Positions 22,321 through 51,248 of a stretch of DNA of 64,000 nucleotides are shown here, one piece after another (the stretch's first letter is position 1; each line of letters starts with the position of its first letter). The stretch is from Asterochloris sp. CNOR1 (lineage: Eukaryota; Chlorophyta; Trebouxiophyceae; Trebouxiales; Trebouxiaceae). The stretch spans positions 62,001 to 126,000 of the forward strand of contig OZ017751.1 of assembly GCA_963969365.1 (NCBI GenBank), in the 5' to 3' direction. The notes beneath the pieces are model-generated. The model was given only the letters and a program-made list of their open reading frames with translations. It did not search any database and was not told the origin of the DNA. The translations under genes were made by a program, and so were the position numbers.

Positions 22321-25300
22321 TCACTCTGAGGGGCTGGCAAACAACTCGGCATCGGCCTTTGCAGCCTCGTCAGAGTCCCTCGGCAGTATCATGTCCAGCT
22401 GGCGAGAGGCCGACACCGACTTGCGCTTGTTGCGGCGCTCCAGCTCTGCCCCTCGCCACTCCTGCACAGGTGAGGTTTCTCTCAGTGGTGAGCCTTGCTG
22501 CGCAACTGCTGCTGCATTGCCAGCTCTGAGCATTGCCAGTCTGCCAGCGCTCAAGTGAGGCTGCTGCCATTGAGAAGACTTGAGTTGTAGATGCACTTAC
22601 TGCTGCTGGAGGCGCTCGATCACTGCTTACCTCGGGGTGAGAAGCTAGGGGGCTGCGTGGAAGCCCAAACCACTGGCAATTGGCTGCAGCCCTGGCCAGG
22701 ACACGCAGGAGAGAGTTGCTGGGCAACAGCATGAATGGCTGCGGTGAAGCACGCCAGCAGCAGACACAGCAACAGAATGCCAGCCAGTTGCCAGTGGCTG
22801 CAGCCACAGCAAAGCCTGCCAGCCAGGTGCCAAATGCCAGGCTGGACCACCAGCACGGCTTGCCTTGATGACACCAAAAAGAGGCATGACATGGGCGCGC
22901 TCTCCTCCTGTCACATGCCCACCCCATCAATGCACCAACCATCCACACATTCACCAGTGTCTGACCCACTTGGCAGCACAGACCTGCTGTCTTGCCGGTC
23001 AGCCGCCAATGGGGGTGCACAACAAGCATCGCCCCCAGATCTGCTCACTTTGATGACATCAAAGACTTGCTTTGCGCTGGGCCGCTTCCAGGGCTCGTCT
23101 TCTAGGCACTGCTCTATGAGTGCAGCAATCTCGGCGGGGCAATCATCCGTCGTCAGAGCCCGCATGTGGCCTCGCTTGGGCATCTGTGGCAGGCATGACA
23201 TGGTGAGGTGCACTGAGCGGAGTGCAGAGGCCCGCAGACAGTCCAGGCCAGGGCTTGCTTGGTCACAGACAGGCTTGCACGGTCAGGGCAGGTGTGGACC
23301 GCAGCACCCTAGATGGAGAGCTCAGTGCCTGCCGCCGGGAGGCGCATGTTTGGGGCAACCTGCCGGAGCTGCGTGGTCCGTGTGTCCCATGGCGTCTGCA
23401 TGCTGACCACAAAGCTGCACAGGTGCCATCCGTTCTGGTCAGCTACACTTATCACATCATCATTGTGGCCCAAACCTCAGCTCACCTCCCTTGTCACAAT
23501 CTCCCACCTGCAACAGCGGTGGCAGGTCGCTATCGGGGGGTTGGGGAAGAACCCCGGGGAGCATCACACCCATGGAGCTGCCTTCACATCACAAGCATTT
23601 GCACAGGAGCACCACTCCAGACACCTTGAACAAGCCAGGTGGGGACACTCACATCACGATGCCGGCCGCGTAAATGTCGACCTGCAGCGAGTAGGGTCTG
23701 GTGTGATGGGGCACACTGGATCGTCAGCACTTTTAGGCAAGCCCCGCAAGGAGCGCTGAACGTCAGCGGGACACAACAGAGGCAGACAAACACTGCTATG
23801 CGAGGCCCCACTTGCAAGCAAGACGCCAGCATGCTCAGCATGGCGACTGCAAACCAGGCATGGTGGTGAGGACGGGCTGGCAGCAGAGTAGTTTGTTGAG
23901 AGAACAGCAGCATTTACAGTGCCAGCTGCACACACACCAGTCACCTTTTCGTTGCAATACTTGGCCATGAGAATCTCAGGCGCGCTGTACCTGCAGACAT
24001 GGCAGAGGCTGTAGTGGCAGCAGTGATCTTTCAGCAGCAGCCATGTGTGACGCTTCAACAAGACTGATGGCAACGAAAATCATGCAGAGGCTTTGTGGGC
24101 AGTCCTGCTCATTAGATCCTGACAGCAGGCAGTGAGAAGCAGCCTGGAACGTGAGCAGCTGCTTTACAGGCTGCACATGCTGGAACCCAGTAGCCTGCAG
24201 GCTTTGCCACAAAGCTCGATGTGCATGCCGTCACCTGCAGCACAGACAAGATGCTGCCAATGCAGACCAGTGCCCTGCAAGCACCGGTGCAGTGCCACCA
24301 GTGGCATCCTGCCAGAGCAGAGCCTGGCCCAAAAGGGACCAGCACCTGGCAGGCAAGGGCCAGCCGATACCAGTGCCCTGCCAGTATCAGTGGACTGAGA
24401 GCAGTAAGGTATGCCAGCTTGCAATGACGCACAAACTGCAGGGACCAGTCACACTGCACCAGGACAGGTGCACTGGCAGGCACTACAGCGCTCACTCGAA
24501 GGTGCCCACTGGGAAAGCTACATCGTTGTTGCCGCTGGTGTTGTCACCAACTGTGGTCCTGATGATCCTGCTCAAGCCCACGTCGGCCAGCTTGGCAACT
24601 GTGCGCTCCCTATTCAACAGCAGATTCTGCAGCAGTCAAAGAGCTGCATAGGTTGTGGTGTGCCATCAACAGTGTAGTCAGCCAGACCACGTTCACAGCA
24701 GTTGTGCAGCTAGCAGCATGTTCAGCTCAGCACAATCACGCTGTCATGCAGCGGCGGTGCAGACAGGAGAGGTGCACTCGCAGCAGGTGTGCAGCTGCAA
24801 CATGGACAGCCTGCAGCTTTTCAACTGTGCTGGATACGGCACTTGTTTCAGGGTTGGAGGCAGCACATGTGCCAAGTGCAAACCATGGCTGCAAGTCGGC
24901 AGCTCGTCCAAGCGCCCAGGAGGCCCACCTTTGACTTCACATCTAGATGGATCACCTGCACGGCACAGCAGCAGCAGCTGAGACTCCCTGCTGGAAGGCC
25001 ACGTGCCATGGTTCTGGAGCACCTCAAGCACATTCCTCACCCACTGCCCTGCAGCGAGACAGCTGGTGCAGCACGCACAGCCTTCAAGCCATGCAGCTGG
25101 TGCAAGTTGCCTGCAAAGAGCCCAGTCCCAACTGCTGTCTCCCCCAGCCCAGGCAGTTCCCAGCTGCGTCCTCCCACAGCTCAGGCAGGCAGGCAGACCC
25201 ACTGTGCCCCGCATGGGTGGCAGCGCCCAATCTCCAGGTAGGCCGGCTCACTTTGTTTTTGTGCAGGTACACAAGCGCCCGCGCCAGGTCGAGCGCGATG

Positions 25301-28300
25301 TTGTGGCCCCGCCGCATCCACCTGAGCTCTCCCCGTCTGTCCTGTGCAAGAGCTTCCATCAGGTCGCCTCCGGGCATGTACTCCACCACCAGGACAGTGC
25401 TCTCAGTCTTCAGGCAGGCGCCGTAAAACTGCAGCAGGGACAGCAACGGCAGGTGACGACGGCAACTGAGCTGTACTGTGCAATGTACTCCACGTTCAGT
25501 GTGGTGCCCTTGGTGTTCAGGCAGGTGCCAGTCAATGCAGCAGGGATAGGCTTGAGACTAAAACTGACTGAGCAGCAGTCAGGTCTTGCGACCTGGACAG
25601 CGCAACCCCCCTCAAGTGTGGGGCAGTGAGAAGCTGCAGCGGAGGGGCAGGCAGGATGGCGCCCTCAGGCTCGAGACAGGTGCCGTGACAGTGCAGCAGA
25701 GCACAGCATCAGGCTAGCCAGCCCTTCACCAAACTCTGCATGGCCACTGCATCCTGGCATGCAATCAAGCAGTCTCCTGGGGGCAATGCTGCAGGCAGGG
25801 ACACGAACTATCACGAGGCTGGACTGCAATGATGTCTAAGGCTCAGGCAGAACATCGCCTTTATGCTTGAGGCGGGCTCTGTCTGCAGGGGGCACAGCAT
25901 TTGCGGCCAAGCAGGTGCGTCCTGAACGGCAGTCATGCTTTGAGATGCATGGCAGTGTCGCTCTCTGCAGACCCTCAGCACCCAATAAGGGTGCAGGAGG
26001 CAACACTGCAGGCAGAGCAACAAGCATGAAGGGTGAGGGGTCAAGTGCACCACATGGTGACCAAAGATTGACATGCAGCGGTGATAGTGCACTCTGTGTT
26101 GCTGGCTGCTCTGCCCTCAAATGCGCAACTCTGGACATTTCCCTGCCACACAAAACCCCTTTCCTTTTGCTGATGGCAGGGCAGCCGTGGCTGCTGGACA
26201 TTACCTCGACCCACACCTGTCACCTGAATGATGTTCCTGTCAAAGCTGATGCCCTTCAGCAGCTTGATCTCATGCTCAAACTGCTGCAGCTGGGCTGGGC
26301 CACTGTGCCCCAGGACCTTGACGGCCACGTCCTGCACCCCGTTCTTGAGACCGCGGTACACCTGCAGCCAGCAAAAAATCTGTCAGGAGGCTGTGGTGGG
26401 TGGGAAGGGGGTCAGGAGGGTGGCTCAGGCCACAGTGCACCACCTACAGCCAGCCAGTAGACGTTCTCAGGAGACTAGGATGCAACAGAAGAGTGGTCCA
26501 GACCGCTACACACTGCAGCATGCATGAGAGAGTGAGCATAGCCCCCTGCAGTTGGCAGAAGCACCTCAGACGCAGGCTGCAGATAGCCTGTTGGCACTGC
26601 AGCTCAAATGCATGTGTTGCTTATTTTGGACTGAAGTTCTGGAAAGTGCCAGGAAAGGGGAAGGCATGTGCAGATGCAAACCCCATGCTACAGCTTCCCC
26701 AGGCATCTAGCTGCACAGCAGACTGTGGATGCCTAGCCACAGTGGGTGTTAGTGTCCATAATGAGCAAGACCACACACACAGCCCCAGCCTCACCCTGCT
26801 GGAGGCCCCTATGCCGAGCAGCCAATCCGAGCCGTCTGGCTTCAGACAGATTTCCACATCTGCCAGCTCAGTCCTGTCGCCCGTGATGAGCTCCACCTGC
26901 TTGAGCTTGCGCTCAGAGCCTGGCAGGCCCAGGGGGTTGGAACTGTTGCCTGCACCTGCAGCAGCATTCCGGGTGGCATCACGTCCACATATCCTGTGCA
27001 GCTGGAAGACGGAGGCCGCCCAAGATAGCATGGTGCCTTGTCGTTTGACTAACTGGTAGGGGTAGAGTGTCACAGCTCAAAAACCCAGCACCGTTTCCCA
27101 GACATAGACAGGCCTGCTGTGGGGCGCAAGCCAAGCTGCCCAGCCTTGAGACTTGGGCCTTTGTGGCTTGGTGGACCCATCGCATACAGCCAGGCAAGCC
27201 TGCTAGCGGGTGCCAGGCACATGCTGCACAGCCTGCTACATGTCCTTGCAGTGCCAAAGCATTGCAATGGGCTCGTCTCACCTGAAGCCCCGCCGTGGCT
27301 GCTGATCTCACCTGAGGATGAGCTCCGCTGGGCGCTGTTGTAGTGCCAAGGCAGGATGGGCAGCCCCACCACAAGCATGATGATGGCCATGCCGCCAAAC
27401 AGGCTGGCCATTGCAGGCCAAAGCCAGCCACTCATGACGGTGTCGTCCCTGCAAGCAGGTGCCACCTGACTGTCACAAAGCGGGCAGTGACAACAATGAA
27501 GCAGCTGGGGACGACGGCTTTGCATTCAGACAGGCTAATCAGAGCAAGCCACAGTCAGCCATCAGTGCAGCGCTGTCGTTCCTGAAGCCAGCAGTGACTG
27601 CTCGGGCTCTGACTGTGTACTGACGGCCATGCAGCCAAAAGGGCTGCCCACTTTGAGGCGAGCCTGGTGTCCCTGGTGCCTCTGCAGAGCACCACCCTGA
27701 CAGCGCTACTGTCTGCCAACTGGTCTTGTAAGCATTCAGCAGCAAGGCAAGTATCCGCTCTCCCAAGTGGATTGTTCCCCTGCCCTGACAGGCACCCAGC
27801 AGCAAGCCTTGCATTTGTTACAATTCTGCCTGCCAGATTGTGAGTTTCCCTGACGATGGCCCCTAGCAGGCAGCATGCAGTACCAGCAGAGCATTGCAGG
27901 CAGCAAAATGCATCTGCTGCGGCTGGATCTGCAGCCGCTCCCCAATACGTCTGCCCAGTGCCCTGACAGGCAGCCAGCAGCAAGCTGCAGCTGAGCCTGC
28001 TGCGCCAGGTGTTCCCCACAAATGTCTACCATGTGCCCTGACAAGCAGCCAGCAGGAAGGCCTGCATCTGCTACAGCTCAACCCTCAAAAAGCTGCAGCT
28101 TCAACCTACAAGAGCCACTTTGTATGCTCAACCAGGCCGCAAGGTCTCGACCTGCCGCAGGGCTCTCGCCAAGATGGTCTATGCGCAGACCAACAAGCCT
28201 GCCATACACACTCACAGGCACCCTGCAGCAAGGCCCGCAGCTGCTGTGTCTTGTCCTGCTGGCACAGGAGCTTTCCTCAAGGTCTACCTTGTGCCCAGAA

Positions 28301-31300
28301 AGACATAAAGGAGTAAGGTCAATTCTTCCTTCATCTTCTTCTTGTTTGTATTTGCTACTTCTACAGCTCACCCTGCCAGATGTTGCAGCTGCTCCCCAAA
28401 AGTCTCCCCCTGCACCCGTTTCGTGTAAGGGCACTGCACGTTCACGCCACGCAGGCCCCTGTCTTCTAATGCCGCCTTCAGTTGCGGCAATTGCTCCCTG
28501 ATTCTCTGCAGCAGACATGGAGACTCTGATGCCCAGTGCTCATGCGTCATGTGTTTGGGTTCCACATGGAAAAAGGTGGGTGACGCGAGCTGCACATGTG
28601 CCATAAGGGAGTCATGGTTGTGAGGCAGGCAAACGCACACAGAGACACAAATTGGCAGCATCATGCAATTTCTGGTGCTGCCAGCTGAGGGCAGGTGCAG
28701 CGCTGCTGCAAGGGGTGCAAGTCGTGACGTGCAGGCATCAAAGCGATACAACACACCACAGGCAGGAGCAGGCACAGGGCCTGCTGGCACTGGGGGCATC
28801 TGCCCCACTGCGACGTGCTGGGCTCCTACATTGTGGAGCCTGCATGCAAAACCAGACTGGGGAGAGTCTCTCACTTTATGGAATTCTTTGTTGCTTCTGC
28901 CCATGTTACGCTGTGCAACCTGTCTATTGACTTGGAGAGTGATGTAGACGGTGGACTGCTTGCTGGCTGCCTTGATGTCTGAGATGCGGAAGTAGGCGCT
29001 GGAGTGGGGCAGGGCCTGAGAGATGTGCCTCAAGGACAGGAGCACCAGGTTCTCCTCATCAAGCTTGAAGGGCAAAATGTTGTCGGCAGTGATCTGCAGA
29101 CAGAAGAGGGGCAGCAGCATCAGGTCCAGGCCTCAGGTGACCAAGATTCGACACAGGCCTGACTCCAGTTGAGAGGATCCCAGAGCCTGCAGCTGACCAG
29201 ATGCTCAAGGTCTTCCAGCACCTGGTACACTCCTGGGAGGCATTGCTGCCTGCCACACAGGTAGGCGTGCACAAGACGGGCGGTAGCAGGGCAAAGCTTG
29301 GCACTGAACGGCAGTGCACCTCCGCCAAGAAAGCAAAGGCTGCCATGCTGCACTCAGCCACCACACCTTCAGCTGAAGCTCCATGCCCTCCAGCTGCAAG
29401 GTTTGAGAGTCCACTGGCATGTAGGGAGCCACCTCTGCCGCAGCCGGCAAAGCCAGCCACTTCAGTGTGAGCGCTGCCACCTGCACAGGGGAACAGCACC
29501 TTCTGACAGGCTGATAGCACTCTTGGACAAGCCCTTGGTGCTCAGCAAATTGCTGGCAGATGGCAGCACAAACATGATGGAGATGTGGCACGCTGGAAGC
29601 CAAGCGTGGAAGGCGCTGCAAGGTGACACCCCAGCATGAGTGCAGCACCCCTGCTGCCAGCTGGGCTGCAGATGCACACAGCACTGTGCAGACAGCCAAA
29701 AGAAACAGTCAAGGTCCTGCTCAGACCAAGTGGAACAGCAGGCCTTGTGTTGAAACTTAGCTGCTGAGGTTGTGCAGTGCAGCCCCAAGTCAGCCCCTCA
29801 AGCAGAGATGCCAGTTCACGTCATGCAATGCACACAACAGCCCAGCCAAGTTCTTTGCTCAGCTCTCTATGCATGCCAGGCCCATCTTTGTGGTGCAAAG
29901 TCCTCTGATTGCAGGACAGCCTGGCTGGTGGACGTTTAGCCAGCTGCAGCAGTGACAGTGCGAGGAAGGCAGGGCAGAGAACAGGGCAGTTGCACTAGTG
30001 TCACGTGGTCACACCTCCTGCCCTATCTTTTGCTGACTGCAGTCAACATGTGACGATACACACACAACAGTGAGTGCTGTGACCTGACTGCTGCACCAGT
30101 GGCCAGACAGGCCTCGCGCAGCGTGTCATCAAGGAGTGCCAACCGCCCACCAAGCTGTGCATAAACTTAGCATGAGCCAACCCGGCACCTAAAGCCTTAC
30201 GTTGAAGCCCTCTGAGTGCAGGATGGCTTCAACAATACTGTTGATGTGGCTCTGTGTTGTTCCCATGAGCACTGAGTCCTGGCTATAGGCCTTAGCCCAC
30301 AGCAGGTCAATGCTGGCAAAGCGGGTGTAGCGCCAGTACCCAGGGTGGTCTGAGGCGCAGTCCTGGCATGCGCTGCCATCATCCATGTCCGGATAGACTG
30401 AGAGGCGGCACTGCTTGGCGCATGGGTTGCCTGCAGCAGGTGAGACAGGTCTGTCCAGCAGAACAGAACCAGACATAGACCCAGTGGCATCCTGCTGACC
30501 TGGGCTGTACCCCGTGCCACCGGCTTGAAGATAGCGGCAGAGCAGCTCTGCAAGCAGGCAGCTTGCAGACTGTCCCTGTGCTTGCACACTTGCAGCCCAG
30601 AGCGCGAAATGGGGCAGCATTCTGCTGCCCATCTGCAGAAGACTCTCCTGCGTGCAGGTGCACAGGCAAACATGGCCCTTCAGAGCCCTCCTTCTAGGCC
30701 AGCCTGGCACAGCCTCCCCCAGCATCATCACCCATCCCTCTTGCTGTGTGCCACTGCTGTTCAGCCTGTCTGCCCTGCTGCAGCCCATGCATACTCAGCC
30801 GCTTGACCCTGCTGCAGACGACGCTGGCAACAGGAAGCCCACTGAGCAGCCCCAATGCTAATGTCTGCTGTTGCAGATACCTTGACCCTTCATGATTGTT
30901 GACTTGATACTGGCGAAACACGATCCAGCAGCCACCGTCCCAACTTGCTGAATGCTAGCTACTAGCAGGTTCTCCAACTCAAGACCAGACTTTGAGCAGC
31001 AGCTTACCCTCTGGGTGCGCCTTCTCCGGCAGCCCAAGCTCCTGCACGGTCCCCTCGGGTGTGGTGGTCACTGTGAGGTTGCACTGCACCCGTAGTGTGC
31101 GGCAGATTTTGTTGCCAACCTGCCACAGGCTACGGGACAGGCTGTGCGTGACAGGCCACACATCCTCTCCAATCAACCTGCACTGGACAAGCAGCACTGT
31201 CAAGGTCAAGTCAGCCCCCTGCCACAGGCCCTGGCCCTGACAGGCCACACATCCTCCCTAATCAGCCTGCAGCACTTGGACGGGGGAGGCAGGATCAAGA

Positions 31301-32758
31301 ACCAGGCAGATGGGAAACCGAGTGGGGTTTCTGGAGTGACAGCATGGAGCCCTGATGACCATGCTTGCTGGCGGGATGCAACTTTGGCCAGACTCACAAA
31401 CCAGGGCCAGGGTTGGCAAGCCCTGCAGCCCTCTGAGCAGCTGTGCTAAAAAGGCTGCCAGCCTGCAGCTGCCTGCTGCATGGTGCATCGAGCCACGATG
31501 ACCATGTTTGCTGGAAGCAGCTTTGGCCAGACCAGCAAAACCAGGGCTAGGGTTGGCAAGCCCTGCAGCCCTCTGATCAGCTGCGCGACGGGCTGCCAGC
31601 CTGCAGGCAGCGGCTCAATGGTGGCTGCCTGCAGGCTGACAATCAGCGTTCATCGACCATCCTACAGTTCGAGTCTTGATGCACCCAACGTGGGGCACAG
31701 GTTGGCCCCCAACCAGCAGACCAGGGCTGGAACTGGCAAGCTCTGCTGTGTGCTCAGAAGAAGCCATCCGGTCAGCCGCGCCAGAGGCTGCCTGCCTGTG
31801 CTGCTCACAGCCACCACCACTCCCGGCGCGGCGGCCACACCTCCAGCGCCAGGACTGCCTCACGCTGCCGCAGTCGCTGCGACAGCACCAGCAGCCTCCC
31901 TCTCTGCCCCTTCCATGCACCAGCGCAGACAGGCGGACCCCATGCTGCCCAGTCCTGGACAGCCGGCCACACTGGCGGCCTTGCACCAGCGCAGACGATC
32001 GGACGGCACATCGCCACAGCCGCCACACTAACAGACTTGCCCCAGCGCAGACAATCGAAGCCCAAGCTGCCCAGTCCTGGACAGCCGGCCACACTTTGCG
32101 GACTTGCACCAGGGCTCACACCTGAGAGCCACTTGCGCAAGGGGCCGGTGCGCCAGCTTGTCCGTCACAGCCTGCGGAACCATGTTGCCAAAGGTCTGCA
32201 GGCAGGGCAACACACATGTCAGTACCTGGTGGGCAAAGTCTCTGCTGGGCCTTGGTAAGGCATGCTGCCCAGCCCACCTTTGTGTAGCTGATGCCCGCAA
32301 CTCGGGGGTTGACCTCTGCCTCAAACTCCGGCCGCATCGGCTGCTCCTGCAGTGCGGTGTGGCCGTTTCTGCAGCTGCCAGCCTGCCGCCGCAGCAACAC
32401 GTGCTGCTGCATGTCCCTGTCTGCAGCAAGACTCCCCTGCCAGCTTGCTGATGCCAGAGGCGCTCGTTGCTGAGGCTGGACACAGCTGACGCCAAGCTGG
32501 GCTGCTGCATTGAGAATCATGCACTGGCCACTATCATGCCAAAGCGGGATGGACAGCACCCTGTGACATTCTGCACAGCATCCTTGGACTGCATGGCGCC
32601 CGAACGCAACGAATCTAGAGCCAGTATGCATGTACAGTCCTGCAGGAGCTTGCCTGCTTCCATCCTGCATCTGGCATTCCCACGACGCGCTGCAGGCATA
32701 AGTGCAACAGCAGGAGCCACTGCAGCGTAAGCCTGAGCCAAACAACTCCTCTGGCCAT
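22321..32758 (-). CDS. Transmembrane receptor-like protein kinase 1
   Basis: Nineteen exons: 32654-32758, 32278-32346, 32122-32195, 31008-31177, 30201-30430, 29367-29480, 28875-29093, 28372-28505, 27312-27448, 26795-26949, 26224-26361, 25252-25428, 24929-24955, 24496-24626, 23945-23990, 23653-23681, 23486-23507, 23049-23183 and 22321-22461. They total 2253 nt, 750 aa. Signal peptide: core LQWLLLLHLCLQ. Ectodomain ~36-372: no known family, with a Cys cluster (CRLSVYPDMDDGSACQDC). One TM helix ~380-405 (MASLFGGMAIIMLVVGLP). Kinase domain ~460-704, TKL/RLK-like: P-loop GIGASSRV, Lys484 in VAVK, HLDVKSKN with Asp579, DVG at 598-600, SAPE, then a basic tail. The invariant Lys and both Asp remain, so activity is plausible. 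Intron 1 is GC-AG. The paralogue at 40353-51248 shares nearly all exon boundaries. Confidence 0.93.
25376..25700. repeat. Decayed copies of a kinase exon edge inside its intron
   Basis: The 5' part of the kinase-1 exon 25252-25428, with its acceptor (about 25376-25440), recurs at 25482-25546 and, shorter, at 25657-25700. All three share the core caggtgcc or caggcgcc followed after 9-13 bases by tgcagcag. Only the copy nearest the exon keeps an intact reading frame into the kinase. Confidence 0.75.
31119..31273. repeat. Partial duplicate of a kinase-1 ectodomain exon start
   Basis: The exon beginning at 31177 (reading LIGEDVWPV) has a second partial copy at about 31219-31273 that reads LIREDVWPV behind its own ctgcag. 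The two share ctgccacaggc, gacaggccacacatcct and aatcaRcctgca. The copy stops being exon-like after about 50 bp, so it is a decayed pseudoexon. Confidence 0.8.
31354..32110. repeat. Two intronic tandem repeat pairs (143 bp and ~121 bp periods)
   Basis: Within a kinase-1 intron, a block starting gatgaccatg at 31354 recurs at 31497 with the shared core gttggcaagccctgcagccc. A second pair, with core cccagtcctggacagccggc, starts near 31943 and 32065; its second copy runs up to the exon at 32122. Neither resembles a known transposon. Confidence 0.8.
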
Positions 32759-32947
32759 TCAGCAGAGGATCATGGAGCTATTTGGTGGAACTGCAAAAAT
32801 AGTTGGTGTCTGCAAGAGTTCAGGATCCTGCTCTGGAGTGTCTACTATGTGCTTCCTGACTGGAGATGTGGTGCGCCGACAGCTCAGGGCAGTGCAGGGA
32901 TAGAAGGAAAGACCACGCAACGTCAAGGTGCACGACAAGCTGCAGGA
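32759..32947. promoter_or_regulatory. Short divergent (bidirectional) promoter region
   Basis: Only 189 bp separate the start codon of kinase 1 (minus, 32758) from that of ENY2 (plus, 32948). This interval must hold the 5' UTRs and core promoters of both, or their promoters overlap upstream exons. No clear TATA box is seen. Divergent sharing is inferred from spacing only. Confidence 0.5.
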
Positions 32948-33679
32948 ATGGCTGCCAACATCAACAGGCCGCCCACTCCAGAGGCAGAGCATCGCGAGCT
33001 CTCGATGGAGGACCATGTCCAGCTTAAGGTGTTGTGCTTTGCCCTCATGTACTGTTCCTTGGATAAGAAATGGAGATAAGGGCCCCCAATGCTGACACTA
33101 AGATCCTGCTGCTGTAGCTGGTGCAAAGCGGGGAGCTAGACAGGTGCAGTGGAAGCTTGGGTGTTGTGCTGACCTGTACTCCAAAACCATGCTGGGTGCA
33201 ATGGCTGCCCTGAAAAAGCAAGAGACGTCAGGAGTAAGTAGTTGTACTGCTCAGGATGCTGTGCACTGCAGGCTCAAGGACTTGCTGTCGCAGAGGCTGA
33301 TGGAGTGCGGCTGGGTGGAGGAGGTGAAGGAGCGCATGCAAGGTCAGTCCATGTCTCACGTTGGGCTCTCTGTTTTCGCTGCAGCTCGCTTGGCTGCTCC
33401 TGGGAGTCCCTCAAGTGACTGGCTGAGCCCACTGCAGGGGTTCTGCAAGGCGTGCATGGGCAGTGAGGCCTGCATGCCAGAGGTGTTGCTTGCACCCTTC
33501 ATGCCAGCTCTCAGAGAGGTGCTGGCCCCCCTGCAGAAGTGTTCAAGGAGAGGCAGCAGCAGGGCCAGTCGCCTTCCAGCGCAGATCTGGTGCAGGCAGT
33601 GAAGCCCTTTGGGCGCAGCAGTGTACCAGACGCTGTCAAGGCTGAGCTGCTGGCCAAGCTGACAGACTTCATAGCCTGA
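32948..33679 (+). CDS. ENY2: ENY2/SUS1-like transcription and mRNA-export factor
   Basis: Four exons, 32948-33028, 33118-33143, 33272-33342 and 33537-33679, join in phase (321 nt, 106 aa). The product matches the ENY2/Sus1 family along its length: LVQSGELDRLKDLLSQRL, then MECGWVEEVKERMQEVFK, then DLVQAVKPFGRSSVPDAVKA and a C-terminal Leu-rich helix ending DFIA. Members are about 100 aa. ENY2/Sus1 is a subunit of the SAGA histone deubiquitinase module and of the TREX-2 mRNA-export complex, in the nucleus and at nuclear pores. The second exon is only 26 nt. The first ~20 residues (MAANINRPPTPEAEHRELSM) are poorly conserved, as in other members. It is divergent from kinase 1 and convergent with the P450. 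Confidence 0.95.
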
Positions 33680-34242
33680 TGTTGCCCTCAAGGCTGGAGT
33701 TACGTGATACAGGGCACTAAGAGGCAAGCACATCTGGCAAAGTGGCTGCTGATGCGGCTTTTGAGGAGGCAGCGCAGCTCTGTTGATCATGATGAGCACA
33801 TGCAGTGCTGAGGCGCTAGTGTGGCTGAGGAGGCTGAGACACTATGCTGTCCCTCATGATCTGTGTTGCATGTCCTGCTCAATGTGGAGCATGTTGCATT
33901 GATGTTGTAAGGATGTACAGTGACAACACCTTCATCAAATTCAGTCTTGAACCAGCTCAAAGTCAGTACAAGCCCAGAATGTACAGCAGCAACAAACAAT
34001 ATAATCTGAGCATGATTGATAGCGGCTTGGTGCAAATAGTTAGCATACAAGAGCTGGGAGTGAGCAGGCGTCTCAAGCCTCATTGCTATTGATCAATCAA
34101 AGCAAAGAATGCTGAACATAGCCGTGTGCAATGCAGAGCAGGGCCCCAAAGATGATGGTGGAGCAGAGCACTTGTACAAAAGGAGGACAAGCAGCAACAG
34201 GGACGGCGCCTGTGTGCTGACAGGGGAAAGACATGCGCCCAG
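33680..34242. other. Convergent intergenic region (ENY2 / P450 3' ends)
   Basis: About 560 bp lie between two converging stop codons and should hold both 3' UTRs. It is AT-richer than the genes, especially 33840-34060. TGTAA at 33906 fits ENY2 polyadenylation. Nothing else is supported. Confidence 0.5.
33906..33910 (+). terminator. Candidate TGTAA poly(A) signal, ENY2
   Basis: TGTAA lies about 227 nt past the ENY2 stop codon in AT-rich sequence, a plausible algal polyadenylation signal. Weak on motif alone. Confidence 0.35.
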
Positions 34243-40352: not shown

Positions 40353-43300
40353 ATGATGCCAGAGGGCACCCTCAACAGCAACGCCTTAGGCCTCACTCTG
40401 ATGCTGACCGGATTGTTGGCACTGTTGAGACTCAGCTCTGTCAGTGGGCACACCGCAGGATGGGAGGTGGAGGTGAACCTGTGAATGCACAGCATCAAGA
40501 CCAGCATGAGCAGGCCCTTGTTTGCTTTGTCATGCCTAGCATGCTGGGCTCTGCAACAGGAAGCAATTCTGCGCATGCAGACCAGCATGAGCGGGTCCTG
40601 CATCTGCATTGAGGTGCACTGCTTGCCAAGCTCTGCAGCAGGCCTGGCTGCACAGGCAGCAGCAGGACCACCCAGGTTGCAGAGCTGGTGCGGCCAGCTC
40701 GTGCCACTGCAGAGTCTGCAGCTGACGCAAGAACATGCCGCGCCGCATGGAGTGCACCAATGTGGCGCCTCAGCTCACTGGGCATGCAGGCCGGAGTCAG
40801 CCTAGTGCACTGCAGGACCAGCCGCAGCGCCCGCTGTGGACTGCAGAGGCCAATCCCACGATCAGCGGAGTCGGCTTCACAAAAAACTTCGGCAGCCTGG
40901 TGGCACCCCACCTCGTCGCCAACATCTCACACCAGCCGCTGTGCCAGGTGGCCGTCAGGTGACCACCCAGCACTGCACATGCCAGGGAGGCACTGTCAGC
41001 TGGCATGAGCGATAGCCATGCTCTGATAAGGCAGCAAGCAGGGCTGTTCAGGATACACCGCTGTCTGGCTCGAGCGGTAGCAATGCTCTGCCCAAGCTCC
41101 ACGCAGGCGGCTCCATACATGCAGGCTGGGGATGGTGCAGCAGCTGAGGCTGGATGCCGGGCTCCGCGAGCCCTGCTGCATGAGCCCCCTCTGCACCCTG
41201 TTTCAGTGTTGACTGCGCTTCTGCACTGTCCCTCTGCACTGCAAGCTTGGCCAGCCACTGGCTGATTGCATGTGCCAGGCAGCTTGGCAGGCTCTCTACC
41301 TCTGCAGTGTCCAGGCTCCTGCCCAGCGCCTCCGGACTGTCCAAGCTGCTGCACCTATGTGACACGCTCCCGCTGCCGTCGAGAGCCCTGCCGGGCAGGC
41401 TGCTCAGGGTCTCTGCCTGCCCTGTTGTGTGTCCCAGGCAGCTGCACAGGAGCCCTGGCTCCAGGCAGTCCCTGCTGCTGTCCCTGCAATGCCAGATGGG
41501 TCTGACGCAGGCATCCACCTGCTGCTGCTGCGCTCTAGGTTTTGCTGCACTCCAGCCGCCCCCATCGAGAGGTTGGGGGCCTCGACCTGCCCTGCTGTAT
41601 GTGCCAGGGCGCTGCCTTGCGCCCTGAATGCCATGACCTCCCTGCTGCTGCTCAGAGCTGCCCACTCAGAACTGCTGCAGGCTGACCCTGCTGGCGCTGC
41701 TGCATGGGCCACCTGCTCCTGTGCGGTTCCTCACACAAACACACTTGGTCACTGGCGGTTGCACACACCAGCCTCTGGCGGGCCGCTGAGAGCTGCTGGC
41801 CTGCCCTGCTGCAGGCTGATTGGGGAGGATGTGTGGCCTGTCACGGCTGGCCTGTCCCGCGGCCTGTGGCAGGTTGGCAACAAGATCTGTCAGACGCTCA
41901 ATCTGGACTGCAACCTGACAGTGACCGTCACGCCTCAGGGGACGGTCAGTGAGCTTGGCCTGCAGGAGGGGGCTCATACAGAGAGTGAGTGCTCAGGGCA
42001 GGCAGTAGTGGGTAGGGAGCAGCATGCCTGCTCTGGGAGCCACGGTGCGCTTGTCTGACGCACCCTCTGAGTCGCACCACAGTTGGCAGTGCTGTGGTAT
42101 GCAGCCCCAGGCACGGACCATGGCATGGTTTCGGAGTGTGCCTTGCACCCTGATGATGGTGCGCTGTCAGTGCCTGGGGCGAGACGTCGTCCCAGCTGGT
42201 CCAGAGCGCTGGCTGTGCCCCCCATCCTCCCAGTGCTGACACAGGGCGCTCACGCAGCTTGGCAGACGCTCACACTGCCAACGGCTGCTTTCCTGCATTC
42301 ATGGGAGGTGCAATTGTGAGGCCTGTATGCAGATGACAATATAATATATTTATGGTAATTCTGTGTGGAAATCACTGCTGGCCCCTGGCGCCCCTGAGGC
42401 TCTGCACCTGCACTGCAGGCTCCTCCGACGTGTGCGTGGAGGTCTGCCGCCTGCAGGTCTACCCCCAAATGGACAACGGCAGCAAGTGCGAGCGCTGTGG
42501 GCTGGCGCATAGCAGTGTGTGGCAGGAAGCCCGCTTTGCCAGCATTGACCTGGTGTGGTCCAAGGGGTACAATGCCGGCTCAGCGCTGATGGGCACCACC
42601 CAGAGCCAGATGGGGCAGATTACCCATGCAGTGCTGCTGTCGGAGGGATTCAATGTGAGGCTGCCCCTGGGTGTGCCTCACAGCTTGTCTGCTGTGTCAG
42701 GCAGCCTTGGTCATGCCACAGGCCACTGCTGCTGCTCTTTTAGTGCCTGGCCCATCCTTGCTTGTCTGCATGAAGTGGCTGTTCAGATTGGCGGGCATCT
42801 GTCTGTCCAGGCTGCTCATTGATGCAGGATCTGACCTGCCTGTGTGGTGCCGGCAAGCACCAACCTTGGTTGCCATGAGCTAGTCAGCCACTGTCCCTGA
42901 GTCAACCGCTGATTTGAGTGTCATGGACGAAGTAACACGCAGTGCTGGCCTGCCGCATGCTCATCACCCCACCCCAGCTGCTGCTTGTGCTGCAGGTCAC
43001 AGCGGTGCCACTGAAGTACCAGGTACTTCCAGCCGCTGTGTTGGTGGCGCCTGCCATGCCAGTCGACTCCCAGGCCATGCAACTGAAGGGCTGGGAAGTG
43101 AAGCTCAAGGTGATCGCAGCAGCTGCCAGAGCTGGTGCTGCTGCTTCTCGAGTGTTTGACTGGCCGGGCCACATCACACGTGGAAGAATGTGGACGCCCT
43201 GACAGCATGTGAACATAGCAGCTGCACGAGGTGCAGCACTGACCATTGACAAACTCAGCAGCTGCCAGGTTGGGAAACTGGCTGGGGCGCTTGACTTGCG

Positions 43301-46300
43301 CAGTGTGGAGGCCCTGTCTGGCCAGGCTGCTGCTGACTGCTGGCATTTACACCATCCTGATGGCCAGGCGTTCTGGATTGAGCGGAGCCTGTAGAGCAGG
43401 GGTGTGTGGCCTGAGCATCATTATCATGTATCACCCAGGTCAGCCGCCTATAACGGGGCGTCAGGCTGCCAGTTGTTGCTCAAAGACATGGGTCCTGCTC
43501 TTGTGAGTGGCAGGCAGCAGCAGACACATGACTCCGGCTCCTATGTGCAAGGCCTGTGTGAAGCCACTGCTTGTGCCCTGTCACAAAGCATGTTCCAATG
43601 TTTGTGTGCCATGCAGATTGTGTCACCCACCATCCTGCCCTTCACAGTGGAGCGAGAGAACATGCTGCTGGATGCGACGGTGTCGGTGCAGCGACGTTTG
43701 CCCCACTCGAATGCCTACTTTCGTGTCTCGCACGCCAAGTCATCCCTGAAGGAGCACACCTTGTGGGTCACGTTGGTCATCAACAGGCAGTCATTCAAGC
43801 ATGGGGCTGGTCACCTCACCTACAAGCAGGTAAGCGCTGGAAACCTCAGGGCTGTGACAGCAGCCCACAAATACTGGGCTGTCGCATAATTAGGTGGGGT
43901 GCTGGGGGCAGTGCGTGATGCTGAGCTGAGGCCGCTGACAAGCAGCTGCAGTGACCCACTGTCTGGTTTGCACTACGAGTCTCAGGGCTGTTACAGGAGC
44001 CCACAAATACTGGGTTGTCGCACTATCAGGTGGGGTGCTGGGGGCAGCGCGTGGTGCTGAGCTGAAACTGCTGGCACGCAGCTGCAGTGGCTCACTTCTG
44101 GGAGCGGGGATGGGGGGCCATGTGGGTTGTGAGGCAGACAGGGATGGGCATCATGTGCAAGCAGGTGGCCAGTGTAGAGCTTTAGGTGCGCTGTCAGGGC
44201 AGCCTTTTGGGCATGTCGGCGGGTGTTATGCAAGCAGGTTGGCTGCTGGCCTGAGGAAGGGCATGTTGCCTGGAAAGAGTATGTGGGCCTCAGCAGGGGT
44301 TTAGTGTCATGCTGTAGGGTTTCAAGCTGAATGTGAGCAGCGGCAACCTTCCGCACTGCCTTCTGCAGCTCACAGGTCCTGCCACCAACATCAGATCAGT
44401 GCCAGACAGCTGGCATGCTTCCACTGCAGCACATCAGTGGCAGAGGACAACAGCGCTAATTGCTGTGCCTAAAGAGGGTAGCATTTGCAACCATAACACC
44501 TTCAGCTGTGCACCTCGTAGCCCTGGCACTTTTGCGAGTTGCACATCATTGGTGATGAGGTAGCTCAGTGCTGTGCGCCCAGACTGTTGCCAAAGCCCCT
44601 TCGCCTGCCAGAGCCGGCAGATTATGAGGCATCTGAAGAGATGCAGCGAAGTGACTCCCAAAACGGCCCCCCTTCTGACGCCTTGTTTGCTGGCTGCAGC
44701 TGGTAGACTCCGAGATGCCTAACATTGTTGCCGCGCTGGAGGAGAGGGGCATGAAGGATGTGTCCGCAAGGATCGTCTATGCCAAGCCGGCCATCAACGA
44801 GACCTTGTCCTACCAGATGAGCAAGATGGCAGGGTGAGCACCAAAGCTGTACCCACTCCCCTTGCTGATCTGCTGCTGTCAATGGTGCTGCTAAATTAGG
44901 GGATCGGCATTGCCCCCCCCTGGCTCATGCCTTCCACTGACTTTGTGACTGCAGTGGCACTTATCCCTTCCCCAGCAACTCCTGCTGCAGATTTGGGGGA
45001 ACGGGCAGCACCTCTGTGGGTGAAAATCACCCCTGCAGACATTTATTGTTGCCAGCTCGTGCTGCATGCACGGGGCATCATCAGCGCATCCATGGGTGGA
45101 GCACTCGCCTGCGATGAGTTAGGGTTCAGGGTTAGGGTCATCCTGGGTCACTCCTGCTGCAAATGTGAGGTGGGAACGGCTCTCCCCTGGGTGTTGCCAG
45201 CCTTTGCCACCCAGAGTGTGGGTCTTGCTCGTCTCTTCTCGCCGTCGCCTCTTCTCGCGGTGTGCCCTTGCTGCCACAGCAGCCACAGAGCCTCGCCGTT
45301 GTCCCCCTCCTGCTGCAGATTGGAAGAGGAGACTGCACTCCCCTGGCTGTGGCCGGCCTTTGCCACCCTGAGTGCGGGCATCGCTCTCCTCATGCTGGCT
45401 GTGGGGCTGCCAGTGCTTCCCTGGCACCGCTATGGCAGCGAGAAGCTGAGGTCAGGGAGCAGCATGCGATCAGGTGGGCTCACACCTGAGACGGGGGTTT
45501 AGGGCTTTAAGGGTTTTAGGACCCCTGGAGGTCTGCAGAGCCCTCTGCCAGGTCCCCCAGCAGTGTGCATTGAGGCAGGCTCACACCTGAGACCTCTGGA
45601 GGTCTGCAGAGCCCTCTACCATGTCCCCCAGACAGCACTGCAGCTGTGCGACTGGTGCTGTTGCCGCATGAGAGGTTGTCGTTTCCCCACAAAGGTGACA
45701 AGATCTGGAGGAAATGGAGGGGCCTCATTGAACTGCGCTCTGTTGTGCAAGCAAGCTCTTCATGTCCCCTTTTTTCCTGCCTCTTCTTGTACTTGCTTGG
45801 GTCCATGAGCACACACAAGAACTGCCATGCTGACAGCTTGCTCTGCTGACTGCTTGCTACGGTTCTGCTGACTATTGCCTGTTTCCGCTTGACAGATGCT
45901 CCAGAGAGCTGGCACATGATTTGCAATGGGATTCTTGTGTCAGCATGTATGGCACTGGCATGAGCACGCGTGCAAGCCACAAGCCACAAGTCACACCATT
46001 AGTGCTAGCTGCAGATGTTCACAACATGAGGTTCCCACAAGGCCATGGCAGTTTTGGGAGTTGATTTCGAGTACACGTGGCACTGGCATGAGCAGGATGT
46101 GCGACACTTCACTCACGTACACACACTGACACTTCCTTGAGCATGCATGCAAGCGCCATGGGTAAGAAAAGGTGCCAGCTGCATGAGGCTCCATGCATCC
46201 ATCCCTTCAAACCTGTAGACCAGTGCAGTGTCCTCTGGGCTGGGGCCTGAGTCTGCAAAAGTGCTCAGAGTGAGTTGTGGCCCTGCTCTGCAGTAGATGA

Positions 46301-49300
46301 GTTCACGTCCAACCCCTTCAACATGCCGGACTGCGACCGCAAGCTGAACCAGCTCCCCCTCATCACGGGCGACAAGACGGAGATGGCCGACATCGAGATC
46401 GTGGTGCGCCCTGACGGGAAGAACTGGCTGCTGGGGACAGGCACAGCTGGCAAGGTGAGGCCTCTGAGTGACCTGGTAGCCCTGGTAGACCATGTCAAGA
46501 CGCAGCTAGAACTCCAGAAATGACTGCCGGCAGAAATGCTTGCAGAGATCATTGTGCACTGGGACGACAAGTGTGCCCTGTCAGGGACAGACAGTTGCAG
46601 CTGGCAGAGTCAGTGGATGTGGCAGCTGGGAGTGTGCAGCGCTGGCTGGGCACCAGGGATCTGAGCAGTCACAAAGCTTGTCAGGAATCACTTGTGCGCT
46701 GTGATGCCAGGAGCTGGCTGCTGGGGACGGGTGCAAAGGGCAAGGTGAGCAATGCAGACAGCAGGGGATGTTGTCAAGAAACTGACTGGGCACCTCGAAG
46801 GGATCACAGTGTGCTCCAATGGCTGGCTGCTGGGGCTGGCAAAGTGAGCCAGAGGCGCAGCTGTGACCTGGCAGCTGTGTCCAAGTGGAGCTGGAAACCC
46901 AGGGATGGCTGCAGGCCCTGAGGGTGGAGGCCATTGTGGGCTTTGACGGCATGACTGTGCTGTCAGGGACAGATGCAGCTGGCAAGGCAAGCGGGCCTGT
47001 CAGCTGTGACCTGTTTTCTTTGTTTTTGCAAGCCTCATTCCTAGGACATGCAGCTAAGTTGCCTGACTCCAGGTCAAGTGAGAGCAAGATGGCGCACCCA
47101 CCTACCCATCCTCGACACAGCACCCCCACTTGACGGATTCACAGTTGCTGCAGGTGTGCCGTGGCGTGGATAAAGGTGCACTCCCCTTCTTCCTCCCTCC
47201 AGCACAACACAGCCTCCCGCCAGGTGTCGCTGCCTGCTGCAGGCGTATCGAGGCCTGATGCACCCTCCTGTTCCTCTCCCTGGCAGTGCAGCCCCCTTGA
47301 GGAGTTGGCCATGCGCTGCTGCAGGTGTACCGCGGCCTCAAGAACGGGTGCCAGGACGTGGCCATCAAAGTACTGAACCACACAGGGAAGGCCCACCTGC
47401 AGCAGTTTGAGAACGAGATCCGGCTGCTTAAGGGGCTGAGCTTTGACAGGAACATCGTTCAGGTGTGCTCTCAACCCCAAAAACACCCTGCCTGGGTCTG
47501 CTGCCAGGCTTGGCTGTAGCTACCGTTGGGCTGTACAGGGTCACTGCCACTGCTCCTGCTGCAGCATCCGCAGCCTCTGCCTGATGCCCACGCTCAACGT
47601 GCCACTACAGCCCAGCCTGCACCTTCAGGGCAGTCGTTACTTTGCCCGCCGCACTTTGACCGCGCCTGCCTGAGTTTCAAGGAGCCACTGCATTCATGAC
47701 TGCACTCACTGGACAGCTGCTGGCCCAACCTGCTGCAATTTTCACAGCTCATCTGCTATTGCTTACCCCTTGCTGCAGTTTTATGGCGCGTGCCTGAAGA
47801 GTGAGGGAGCCATCATGGTCCTGGAGTATATGGCTGGCGGCGACCTGATGGAGGCCATCGCCCAGGACAAGAATGGGGAGCTCAAGTGGATGCGGAGGGG
47901 GCACCTGATTGCCCTGGACGTGGCTCGGGCGCTAGTGTTCCTGCACAGGAACAAGGTGGGGTGGTAGTTGGCTGTGAGGATGCGGTGCGCCTCAGGGAGA
48001 TGGCGGGCTGCCAGCCCCCTGACGATGATATGACTGCATTGCATATTGGAGAGCTCTGACTTCAGCTGGCTGCCCAAATTGTTTTGAGACCCTGGAGGTG
48101 GTACGAATGGGGGTGTCTCTGCACAGGACTTCAGCTGGGATAGCCCAGCTGCCTGTGTGCAAACACACGCAGACACACATATATACAAGTTTGTGAATGT
48201 ATGTGTATGTGCCATGAGGTGGGTGGCTGGGGCAGTGCCTTGGCTGTGGCGTGGGCGCTCGTGGCCTTGCACAGCAGCAGAGTTGGGTGGGCAGAGGCGG
48301 GTTGACACAGACTCACTCCAGCTGCGTCAGTTGCTTGGTCCTCTGCATTTGCTGTCTCTGGTGCTTCTGCAACAAGACTAGGTGAGATTGATGATATAAA
48401 CAGTTCAGGTTGTGCAAGGAGGAAAGAGGCACCCAACAAGAGGCACCTCCAACGAGCAACGGTTGCAGTCTTTTCAGCAGGGAGGATGAGGGCACCGTCT
48501 GTACTGGGAGATGCCTGGGTATTTGCTTAGCTTCTGAGTGTGACACAATCATCTGCGGGCAATGTGGTACTGCCTGCATGCATGGTCAGGGAATGGAATG
48601 ACTACTCGAGCCAAACTTTTCAGCAGAGTTACTGCATGCCCTGCAGGTCATTCATTTAGATGTCAAGAGCAAGGTGGGCATCTGTGACAGTCTGTTGAGC
48701 AGCGCCACATGCATGAAGAAGCTTGATGGGCACCTCTCAAGCCTTGATCATGCCTGTGTGGCGAGCACAGTGCAAGCGCAAGCACATGGCAGCCTGAGAG
48801 GCAGCTCTCAAAGCTCTGATCGTGCCTGCATGCACAGTAGTGGAGCACAGCACAGCCCCCTCAGCTCACTCTGCCTTGGAGCAGCTGAGCGTCTCTGCAC
48901 GCTTGAGTCTGCACCTGCTCAGGGACAGTGCCCGCTCTGCAGAATATTCTCATGAATCAGGATCGTTCACTAGCCAAGCTGGCCGATGTGGGCATCAGCA
49001 GGATCGTGCACACCACCATCGGTGCAAACACCAGTGGCAACAATGACGTCGCGTTCCCCGTCGGCACCTTCGAGTGAGTTGACGGGCTGAGTGAGACCCT
49101 GCTTGGCTGCCTACAAAGGGGTCGCTGGGTGTATATACATAGGCTCTTGCCTGTTGCCTGGGTCCCGTGTGTCCCAGCGCAGCCACCAAGCACACACGCG
49201 GCCTTGCATGTGGCCTGACCACAGATGCACCTCATGACACCCAGGTGGGTGTTCGACCAACCAGGTGTTTGGAAGGTTGTGACTGGTCAGCCCTGATGTC

Positions 49301-51248
49301 CTGGCCCTAGAATGCCCAGGGTTCAACCTGACTGAAACAGCAGCAATACCCTGGGAGCAATTCATAATTGTCTGACCTAGCCCTGTGTCTGCCATCACAC
49401 TGCTGACATCAGCCTTCTATGAGGGAATTTGGCCTGTTGCAGGGGTCCTCACATTGTTCCACTGCATCGTGCAGGTACTCAGCCCCAGAAATCTTGGTTG
49501 GCAAGTACTGCAATGAGAAGGTGAGTCTGCTCGTCTGTCTGCCTGCTTGCTGATGCACAGCATGGACGTGGCCTGCCTGCCTTGGCTGCTTGCCTTTAGA
49601 TTGACATGGCCCCATCTGCCTGACCTGCTTGCGGCTGTGCACAGCGTGCAGCTGCAGCTGCATGAGCTGCCTGCTGGTGGCAGCCTCACTGCTGCAGCAG
49701 ATGAGCTGCCAGCCGGTGGTTGCTGCATGGCGCTCAAGGGATGCTATTTGCTGTTGTGCAGGTCGACATCTACGCAGCTGGCGTCGTTCTGTGAGCTGCA
49801 CCTGCCTTTTGTGTCGGCTGCCTGCCGCCTGCAAGTGTCCTGGCCTCTACCTCCACTGCATATGTCTGCGGCTGCAGCCACCTTGTCCTTCTTCCTGACA
49901 TTCGTGTCACTCTACTACTGTCAGCCAGCCTGCACACGCCATCAGCCTGCTTGCCCGCATTGTCGCCTGGTGTCATGCTGCATCTGCTGCTGCAACACGC
50001 CTGCAGCACCCACTTGTTCCTCAGCCTGCGCTGGCAAGCTGCCTGCTTGGCCAGAGCTGCGCCACTCACTGTGTGTCGTGGCTGTCTGCAGGTGGGAGAT
50101 TGTCACGCACATGGTGAGCTCAGCTTTTGGCCCCACTAGTGCTGTCAAGCCCACCGGCACCAGCCCCAGCTGTCCCTGTCCAGGCACTGCTGCCCAGCCC
50201 AGCACTTCCATGCAGGCAACGCAGCTGGCACTTACCATCCCTGCCTCCCTTCTTCATGTGTCCATGCACACCTCAGAGCTTGCTGCAGCTGCCGCCACTC
50301 ACCCGTGCACTCCCATGTCCAGGTGCCCCACCCCTCTCAAACCCCTAACCCCAACCTCGTTCTGTGCCCAGTCCAAGACCTGCTGCCACTCACCTGTTGT
50401 TTGGTTGCCACCAGTCACCCAGGTGCTTCCTTTGCAGATGCCGGTGCGCGGCCAGATGAGAGACATCGACCCCTCTGAGTGCCCACCAGAGATCGCTGCC
50501 CTCATAATCCAGTGCCTGTCAGAGGACCCCGAGGAGCGGCCTACTGCCAGGCAGATGTTTGAGACAATCAATGTGGGTGGTGATGGAGCTGTCTGGCTGA
50601 CAGCGCTGCTGCTCCCAAGTGCCAGCACGTTGTGCATGTCTGCCCCTCTACGCTGAGCGCCTGCCGGACAGATGGGCAGGTAGCCCATTCCTGTATTGAT
50701 TGCCAGCACATTGTTGAGGGGAACATGCAGGTCCCGCAGTCACACCTGCTGGCTGGTCAGCCTAGACTGGCCACTGTAGAGGTGGATTACTCCCCCGCAC
50801 AGTGTTCCCTGCGTGCTGCTGAGAGGCCAGCATCTGTGTGCTCAGCCTGGCAGCCGCACAGGGGCCACCACTTGGCAGTTGAGGGGACAGCACCAGCTGG
50901 CTGCCCCTGTGGCCCATACAATACAATCATGATGATCAATGTCTCACATGGGGTTGGGTGACGGTGCTGTCTCTAGTGCTTGTGTTTGCTTTTGGAATGC
51001 CTGACAACACCACGCAGACCAGCTGGCCTGCGCTGATGCAGGGTTGGCGCAATCAGGAGCTCCTGCGCCGGAAAAAAATCAATCCAGTGTCCTCCCTGCG
51101 AAATGTCAGCAATGCCCTTCCCTCGTCGTCATCTCAGGCAGCCGCTGATCCCCCAAAGCGCACCCTCTCTGACAGCATATGGCGGCTCGGCAACACCTCA
51201 GAACCTTTGGAGGAGCTGCAGACGCAGCCCCTCTCCGACTTGATGTAA
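40353..51248 (+). CDS. Transmembrane receptor-like protein kinase 2
   Basis: Eighteen exons: 40353-40472, 40816-40958, 41815-41984, 42419-42654, 42996-43109, 43617-43829, 44700-44833, 45319-45473, 46294-46454, 47325-47462, 47779-47955, 48647-48673, 48943-49073, 49475-49520, 49762-49790, 50092-50113, 50438-50572 and 51042-51248. They total 2358 nt, 785 aa. Signal peptide: core LGLTLMLTGLLALLRL. Ectodomain ~35-380 is of the same unknown type as kinase 1, including CRLQVYPQMDNGSKCERC. TM helix ~386-411 (SAGIALLMLAVGLPVLPW). Kinase domain ~470-717: P-loop GTGTAGKV, Lys497 in VAIK, HLDVKSKN with Asp592, DVG at 611-613, SAPE, CPPEIAALIIQCL near the end, then a Ser/Arg-rich tail. Exon sizes match kinase 1 almost one for one (114, 134, 138, 177, 27, 131, 46, 29, 22, 135). 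It probably signals from the plasma membrane to Ser/Thr substrates; ligand unknown. Confidence 0.93.
45151..45395. repeat. Tandem pseudo-copy of the TM-encoding exon
   Basis: The kinase-2 TM exon (45319-45473) is preceded at about 45151-45230 by a diverged copy in the same frame, reading GTALPWVLPAFATQSVG against the exon's ETALPWLWPAFATLSAG. The acceptor AG is mutated in the copy (ctgctgcaa), so it is probably not used. A weaker trace (cctgctgcagatttggggg) lies near 44980. Confidence 0.85.
46424..46850. repeat. Copies of the kinase P-loop exon end within its intron
   Basis: The end of exon 46294-46454 (ctggctgctggggacaggca then caaggtgagg) recurs at about 46711-46750 (ctggctgctggggacgggtg then caaggtgagc) and more weakly at 46820-46850. 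The second copy would again encode WLLGTG followed by a GT donor. They appear to be duplicated exon-donor junctions. Confidence 0.8.

Follow-up and report, generated by a model that had tools for sequence, protein, structure and literature searches.

A family of putative transmembrane receptor kinases with an unusual ectodomain in the green alga Asterochloris sp. CNOR1

Background

Receptor-like kinases (RLKs) of the RLK/Pelle type, known from land plants, combine an ectodomain, a single transmembrane (TM) helix and a kinase domain of the TKL group. They are few in chlorophytes: in the rows of the review PMC10868138, any RLK is present in 9 of 18 chlorophytes, with 1 to 4 each. Kinase families are described as expanded in Asterochloris (PMC6652019), and for lichen algae of the genus Trebouxia the passages of PMC11523091 that deal with kinase families report both gains and losses, one family being named CTR1 (OG0000219) and others LRR or cysteine-rich receptor-like kinases. 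These families were named by the best protein match and no ectodomain is described in the same passages; some of them could be the family presented here under another name. We analyzed two genes, A and B, in a window of 64,000 nucleotides (the whole stretch of DNA under study: C6:62001-126000, GC ~58%) from Asterochloris sp. CNOR1. Judging from their sequences, they are likely to encode type I receptor kinases with one TM pass, which belong to a lineage-specific family and would perceive a ligand and pass the signal on via a Raf/CTR1-like kinase.

Results and Discussion

Structure of the gene pair

Comparison of the window with itself revealed colinear coding blocks in the 20-34 kb region of the minus strand and the 38-54 kb region of the plus strand. 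The exons were delimited by comparing these blocks across strands and then reading the splice sites by hand. Gene A runs on the minus strand from 32758 to ~22321 and gene B on the plus strand from 40506 to ~51248, with the following features (window positions):

32684..32758, minus: A, tentative exon with start codon and likely signal peptide (MARGVVWLRLTLQWLLLLHLCLQRV); GTGGGA donor, phase 0; unlike B
32278..32346, minus: A, ectodomain exon 1a (EQPMRPEFE...YTK); hand model and aligner
32122..32195, minus: A, ectodomain exon 1b (TFGNMVPQ...VALR); hand model and aligner
31008..31177, minus: A, ectodomain exon 2, start of module 1, RLIGEDVWPVT
30201..30430, minus: A, ectodomain exon 3, with the C-x3-C-x13-C-x2-C insert plus module 1, second half (RFASIDL...GTTQ)
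29367..29480, minus: A, ectodomain exon 4 (MPVDSQ)
28875..29093, minus: A, ectodomain exon 5, module 2 (ILPF...HSSAYFR)
28372..28505, minus: A, ectodomain exon 6, final helix and strand of module 2, as proposed
27282..27448, minus: A, exon 7, TM helix (ASLFGGMAIIMLVVGLPIL)
23049..26955, minus: A, juxtamembrane region and kinase (PF00069, 2.3e-45), nine exons: 26955-26795, 26361-26224, 25428-25252, 24955-24929, 24626-24496, 23990-23945, 23681-23653, 23507-23486, 23183-23049
22321..22596, minus: A, open frame with the C-terminal tail exon (WRxxELxRRxK...); acceptor not fixed
40506..40613, plus: B, tentative exon with start codon and likely signal peptide (MSRPLFALSCLACWALQ...)
40816..40958, plus: B, ectodomain exon 1 (DQPQRPLW...QVAVR)
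41815..41984, plus: B, ectodomain exon 2, start of module 1, RLIGEDVWPVT
42419..42654, plus: B, ectodomain exon 3, with the C-x3-C-x13-C-x2-C insert plus module 1, second half
42996..43109, plus: B, ectodomain exon 4 (MPVDSQ)
43617..43829, plus: B, ectodomain exon 5, module 2; helix, strand, strand in an AlphaFold2 model of low confidence
44700..44833, plus: B, ectodomain exon 6, final helix and strand of module 2, as proposed
45319..45473, plus: B, exon 7, TM helix (ATLSAGIALLMLAVGLPVL); donor after 45473 (hand) or 45496 (aligner)
46294..50572, plus: B, juxtamembrane region and kinase, nine exons: 46294-46454 (aligner 46302-46454), 47325-47462, 47779-47955, 48647-48673, 48943-49073, 49475-49520, 49762-49790, 50092-50113, 50438-50572
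50883..51248, plus: B, open frame with the C-terminal tail exon; acceptor not fixed

The spliced core of gene A encodes 681 aa in 17 exons and that of gene B 677 aa in 16 exons, both free of stop codons, and BLASTP aligned the products from LIGEDV through the kinase end with 368 identities in 635 positions. All introns between core exons are of the GT-AG type (16/16 in A, 15/15 in B). The core exons measure 69+74, 170, 230, 114, 219, 134, 167, 161, 138, 177, 27, 131, 46, 29, 22 and 135 nt in A and 143, 170, 236, 114, 213, 134, 155, 161, 138, 177, 27, 131, 46, 29, 22 and 135 nt in B; the 143-nt first exon of B is split in two (69+74 nt) in A, and the lengths of 12 of the 15 exons that follow are equal. 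A previous sequence-only reading had described A and B as two complete TM kinases with a common ectodomain and almost identical exon sizes, pointing away from each other. All of this is borne out, with the start codons (32758 and 40506) of the divergent genes separated by 7.7 kb. A home-made spliced aligner reproduced the hand model of A, and also that of B with the exception of one TM/juxtamembrane exon pair; as its profile contains A, B and C (a third gene, see below), this agreement is a consistency check rather than independent evidence.

The same reading had assigned A and B a common signal peptide. A signal peptide is plausible in both (predicted to be strong in A, MARGVVWLRLTLQWLLLLHLCLQRV, and moderate in B, MSRPLFALSCLACWALQ...) and its exon is joined to the core in each case via a phase-0 GT-AG intron, yet the two exons are unlike each other, and because of this dissimilarity we only infer them. 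Homology extends to the C-terminal tail exons (local score 70 vs. a best of 52 among 500 shuffles), although their acceptors are not fixed. The ratio of nonsynonymous to synonymous divergence (dN/dS) between A and B is 0.458/1.18 (~0.39) in the ectodomain and 0.211/0.98 (~0.22) in the kinase, estimates that are imprecise with dS near or above 1; they indicate that both halves are under selection and that the duplication is old.

Several features of the introns and of the intergenic region were recorded in addition. The intron immediately upstream of A exon 2 carries a partial second copy of the start of that exon (RLIREDVWPVRAR, 31209-31274, minus strand). The intron of A between ectodomain exons 5 and 6 (369 nt, 28506-28874, minus strand) is open in frame, and its retention would add 123 residues without a stop. 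Intronic tandem duplications of ~120-130 nt are found in both genes (31342-31606 in A, 43845-44101 in B). Between A and B, one of 10 open frames scanned (33102-33599, plus strand) revealed a 24-residue match to the ENY2 transcription factor, with an E-value of 7.6e-5 that remains below the cut-off, which could mark an additional gene. The interpretation of A and B as a pair sharing a bidirectional promoter was judged unlikely, because 7.7 kb and this possible gene separate them.

The kinase domain

The kinase of gene A matches PF00069 (2.3e-45) and PF07714 (4.3e-42) in Pfam and is a member of the TKL protein kinases. Among the best 60 of 2623 PDB sequence matches, the top one is CTR1 (5e-30, 107.7 bits), and others include MLT/MAP3K20 (94.3 bits), SymRK (88.6), FERONIA (87.7) and BRI1 (83.5). 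The resemblance to the CTR1/Raf-like TKL kinases of plants (of the mitogen-activated protein kinase kinase kinase, MAPKKK, type) lies in this domain. CTR1 is not a single-pass receptor, whereas the A and B kinases are preceded by an ectodomain and a TM helix, and the gene models of A, B and C place all three elements in one predicted protein. This is the layout of the RLK/Pelle proteins, and the outline of working would be similar; however, the A/B-type kinase scores 19-24 bits lower with SymRK, FERONIA and BRI1 than with CTR1 in the same set of PDB sequences, and no RLK ectodomain type of Pfam is matched by the ectodomains scanned.

The ATP lysine, the alpha-C glutamate, the HxD aspartate, the KxxN asparagine, the DVG aspartate and APE are invariant in A, B and C, and the third glycine of the G-loop is absent in A and C. 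Of the 15 rows compared, 13 cover the HRD and DFG sites, and all 13 lack the HRD arginine and carry DVG or DCG in place of DFG; being universal there, both deviations are traits of the TKL kinases compared and not of A and B specially. The non-RD loop, the altered DFG and the lost glycine are what one could expect of pseudo-kinases, i.e. of adhesion or wall-strain sensors whose ectodomain anchors to cell-wall material and whose kinase is a scaffold. We find this improbable, since the catalytic residues are kept in A, B and C, the kinase is under purifying selection (A vs. B) and the DVG/DCG and HRD deviations are general among the TKL kinases compared.

Searches for known domains in the ectodomain

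The motifs listed for the ectodomain in the sequence-only reading (GEDVWPVT and MPVDSQ among them) are all present in the A/B/C alignment, and its statement that the ectodomain matches no described receptor domain agrees with our Pfam, NCBIfam (B only) and PDB sequence searches, which gave no convincing match. In the Pfam scan of A and B (E-values up to 10) the ectodomain reached no curated cut-off: B was without any match, and A produced sub-threshold matches to FliK (2.6e-4), PilM (0.0074) and shikimate dehydrogenase (0.12). A second scan, of C, of L040 and of partial sequences from L029, L033 and L037 (further loci of the family, see below; E-values up to 1; L030, L031 and L036 outside the scan) reported none above the cut-off, the strongest being YfcL in C (0.0053). 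NCBIfam contained no match to the B ectodomain. Among PDB sequences there was none for B at E-values up to 10, and the A/B/C profile reached 0.022 at best (5evf), with 6lcq at 1.9. We regard these PDB entries, as well as FliK, PilM, YfcL, VirE2 and Flg_new_2, as chance matches, because all are weak and those from Pfam are confined to one paralogue each. LRR, lectin, LysM, WAK/EGF, SRCR, pherophorin, malectin and SEA profiles are all absent from the Pfam matches of the ectodomains scanned. Scans of viral and prokaryotic contig collections for relatives confirmed none. Among the titles and abstract openings listed from open-licence literature no description of the ectodomain was found, which does not establish its absence from print, and the passages of PMC10868138, PMC6652019 and PMC11523091 on receptor and other kinases contain none either.

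Relatives of A and B in the genome

A search of the genome (56.4 Mb in 21 contigs) with the B ectodomain identified a third exon set on contig C2 (gene C, locus L027), which has a clear signal peptide and, in one spliced frame, the ectodomain, a TM helix and the kinase; its identity to A is 37% overall and 26% in the ectodomain. Gene C seems to have a GC-AG intron (CAG/GCAAGT) after ectodomain exon 3 (L027:3870). In 7 of 12 further TKL loci examined (L029-L040), namely L029, L030, L031, L033, L036, L037 and L040, ectodomain modules are located on the kinase strand upstream of the TKL kinase. The family thus amounts to 10 distinct loci and 2 tandem copies, i.e. at least 12 genes, a lower bound that has ~100 further kinase regions of the genome outside the count. 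The inverted pair is not special as a pair and consists of two members of this family, since the ectodomain or its modules also precede TKL kinases at 8 more distinct loci and in the 2 tandem copies. The general kind of protein, a receptor kinase, is ordinary; the ectodomain and the number of members are unusual.

The first-pass A/B/C profile matched L040 (E-values 0.00084 and 0.0086), L037 (0.0014) and L033 (0.041 and 0.12). After four rounds of iteration matches with E-value <=0.05 (optimistic, as iterated profile E-values are) were present in all 7 loci and in a lone piece on contig C12, with none on the wrong strand. Single-query searches, which do not depend on iteration, connected the loci to each other (L029 module 2: L037, 8e-12; L033, 1.5e-5; L036, 3.6e-5; three copies on contig C9, 0.02-0.04; L040: L031, 1.9e-4; L037: L029, 2.2e-11; L033: L029, 2.9e-5; L037, 0.006), and a module 1 profile built without L029 and L036 found both (1.1e-8 and 0.0011, respectively), upstream of their module 2. 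The four single-locus searches (L029, L040, L037, L033) yielded one outside match with E-value <0.05, at C4:3352682. The aligner models of A, B, C, L033, L037 and L040 cover both ectodomain and kinase. In the region that separates module 2 from the kinase, the 19-residue stretch of highest hydrophobicity scores 2.15-2.73 in 10/10 loci.

The order of the elements bears on the possibility that two or three adjacent genes (for a secreted protein, a TM protein and a kinase) were wrongly joined. Models built from genomic sequence alone, with introns of up to 944 nt, leave some room for such an error, but the introns of A and B are phase-compatible and of the GT-AG type, their exon sizes are near-equal, and the same order recurs in C and seven more loci, which makes it very improbable.

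Contig C9 carries three kinase copies spaced by 6873 bp (2911235, 2918108 and 2924981), the first and part of the second within L030. Copies one and two overlap with 99.8% identity over 3127 bp, and in the third copy the ectodomain matches are displaced by a further 123-150 bp. The triplet reflects either amplification in the very recent past or a duplication introduced during assembly. The piece on C12 (C12:2721554-2721649; L028:4647-4426, minus strand) is exon-like, 56-60% identical to B module 2, with a TAG in the matched frame; no kinase exon was matched within the 9 kb examined, and the piece is probably a decayed relic. The C4 segment mentioned above (C4:3352682-3352951, minus strand) is a weak match to the L040 ectodomain (E-value 0.036) with one stop inside.

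A two-module model of the ectodomain

We propose, as a guess supported by sequence and modeling, that the ectodomain comprises two homologous tandem beta-alpha-beta-beta-alpha-beta modules, with a four-cysteine insert between the halves of the first (C-x3-C-x13-C-x2-C, exact in A, B, C and L040). On the same footing, the order within a module would be strand, xGxxLPFT turn, helix, strand, strand, helix, strand, corresponding to a ferredoxin-like or SEA-like arrangement. When profiles of the two module starts (8 rows for module 1, 10 rows for module 2) were compared, hhalign gave an E-value of 0.0022 and a probability of 13% over 14 columns, placing RLIGpgllPvT in register with lqxxGpxLLPF. Its score of 18.1 was not attained in any of 400 column shuffles (<=13.8) or with a reversed profile (10.2), and for smaller module profiles 0/200 shuffles scored as high. 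Hydrophobic periodicity fits the proposed strand or helix in 10 of 12 segments, and the AlphaFold2 model of B exon 5 (from a two-row alignment) exhibits a helix (11-27) followed by two strands (31-42 and 47-57).

The ectodomain may instead be a far-diverged version of a known extracellular fold (SEA or another ferredoxin-like one), in which case the receptors would be of a known kind under heavy sequence drift. The predicted order of strands and helices is that of SEA and ferredoxin-like folds (the likeness to SEA being one that we presume rather than one that was computed), but no Pfam model of a SEA or ferredoxin-like extracellular domain is among the matches; we consider this explanation quite possible, if somewhat short of probable.

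Functional prediction

The interpretation of A and B as receptor kinases of a lineage-specific family has to be weighed against a number of observations that speak against it or against the proposed ectodomain. Modules are missing from 5 of the 12 TKL loci (L032, L034, L035, L038, L039), four of which (L034, L035, L038, L039) form one kinase clade with support of 0.988. In the uniterated pass L029, L030, L031 and L036 appear only with E-values of 0.7-3, no better than the chance matches in L034 (3.2) and L032 (4.9), and these same four loci display only the order and strand of the elements, ectodomain and kinase not being joined in one model. Second-best hydrophobic stretches score up to 2.24, above the TM helix of B (2.15). 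The signal peptides of A and B differ, and the gene models were all drawn from the genome. The models of L033 and L037 do not show the cysteine motif. The match between modules is limited to the 14 columns and the 13% probability given above; three-row module profiles gave no signal of internal duplication, which appears only with more members, and when module 1 sequences were searched with module 2 by hmmsearch, E-values were no better than 0.4-3. Periodicity disagrees with the proposal at 2 of 12 segments (one strand is a near tie, one helix is contrary), and the exon 5 model has a mean predicted local distance difference test (pLDDT) score of 58.6, with core block means of 60-73.

If A and B are receptor kinases, the modules would face the cell wall or the medium, where they might bind a ligand or partner and thereby bring kinases together; the clustered kinases would then phosphorylate in trans and start a CTR1/Raf-like (MAPKKK-type) cascade. 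Without the HRD arginine, the kinase may depart from the usual mode of activation by activation-loop phosphorylation. The faster change of the ectodomain and the recent tandem amplification suggest that what the family senses has diversified. The combination of a signal peptide with a single TM helix would be equally compatible with receptors of an internal secretory compartment (the lumen of the endoplasmic reticulum or of the vacuole) that sense unfolded or wall-precursor proteins, as these two elements do not separate the plasma membrane from the endoplasmic reticulum; the number of genes, the tandem amplification and the faster ectodomain change would, however, fit a surface role better, and we deem an internal location unlikely. 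As to the novel sensing system for which the sequence-only reading named the pair as a candidate, the receptor-like architecture is supported, but "sensing" follows from the architecture only.

Other features of the window

The open frame 56954-58072 (minus strand) matches condensin subunit 2 (PF05786). At the end of this condensin-like frame there is a tandem repeat (56912-57382) with a unit of ~86 nt, in ~5 copies of 82-89% identity.

Conclusions

We speculate further, as a rather doubtful extension of the receptor-kinase interpretation, that the family could be a green-algal receptor superfamily of a dozen or more receptors, which combines a new two-module ectodomain with a Raf/CTR1-like kinase, was invented independently of the land-plant RLK/Pelle proteins and possibly recognises partners such as lichen fungi or bacteria. 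A family of at least 12 TKL kinases that are shaped like receptors and share a distinctive ectodomain would mean that a green alga built a surface-sensing repertoire separately. In the rows of PMC10868138, receptor kinases like those of land plants are scarce among chlorophytes, though several receptor-like families are named in the kinase passages of the Trebouxia survey (PMC11523091). The genes described here offer specific starting points for the study of perception in such an alga.

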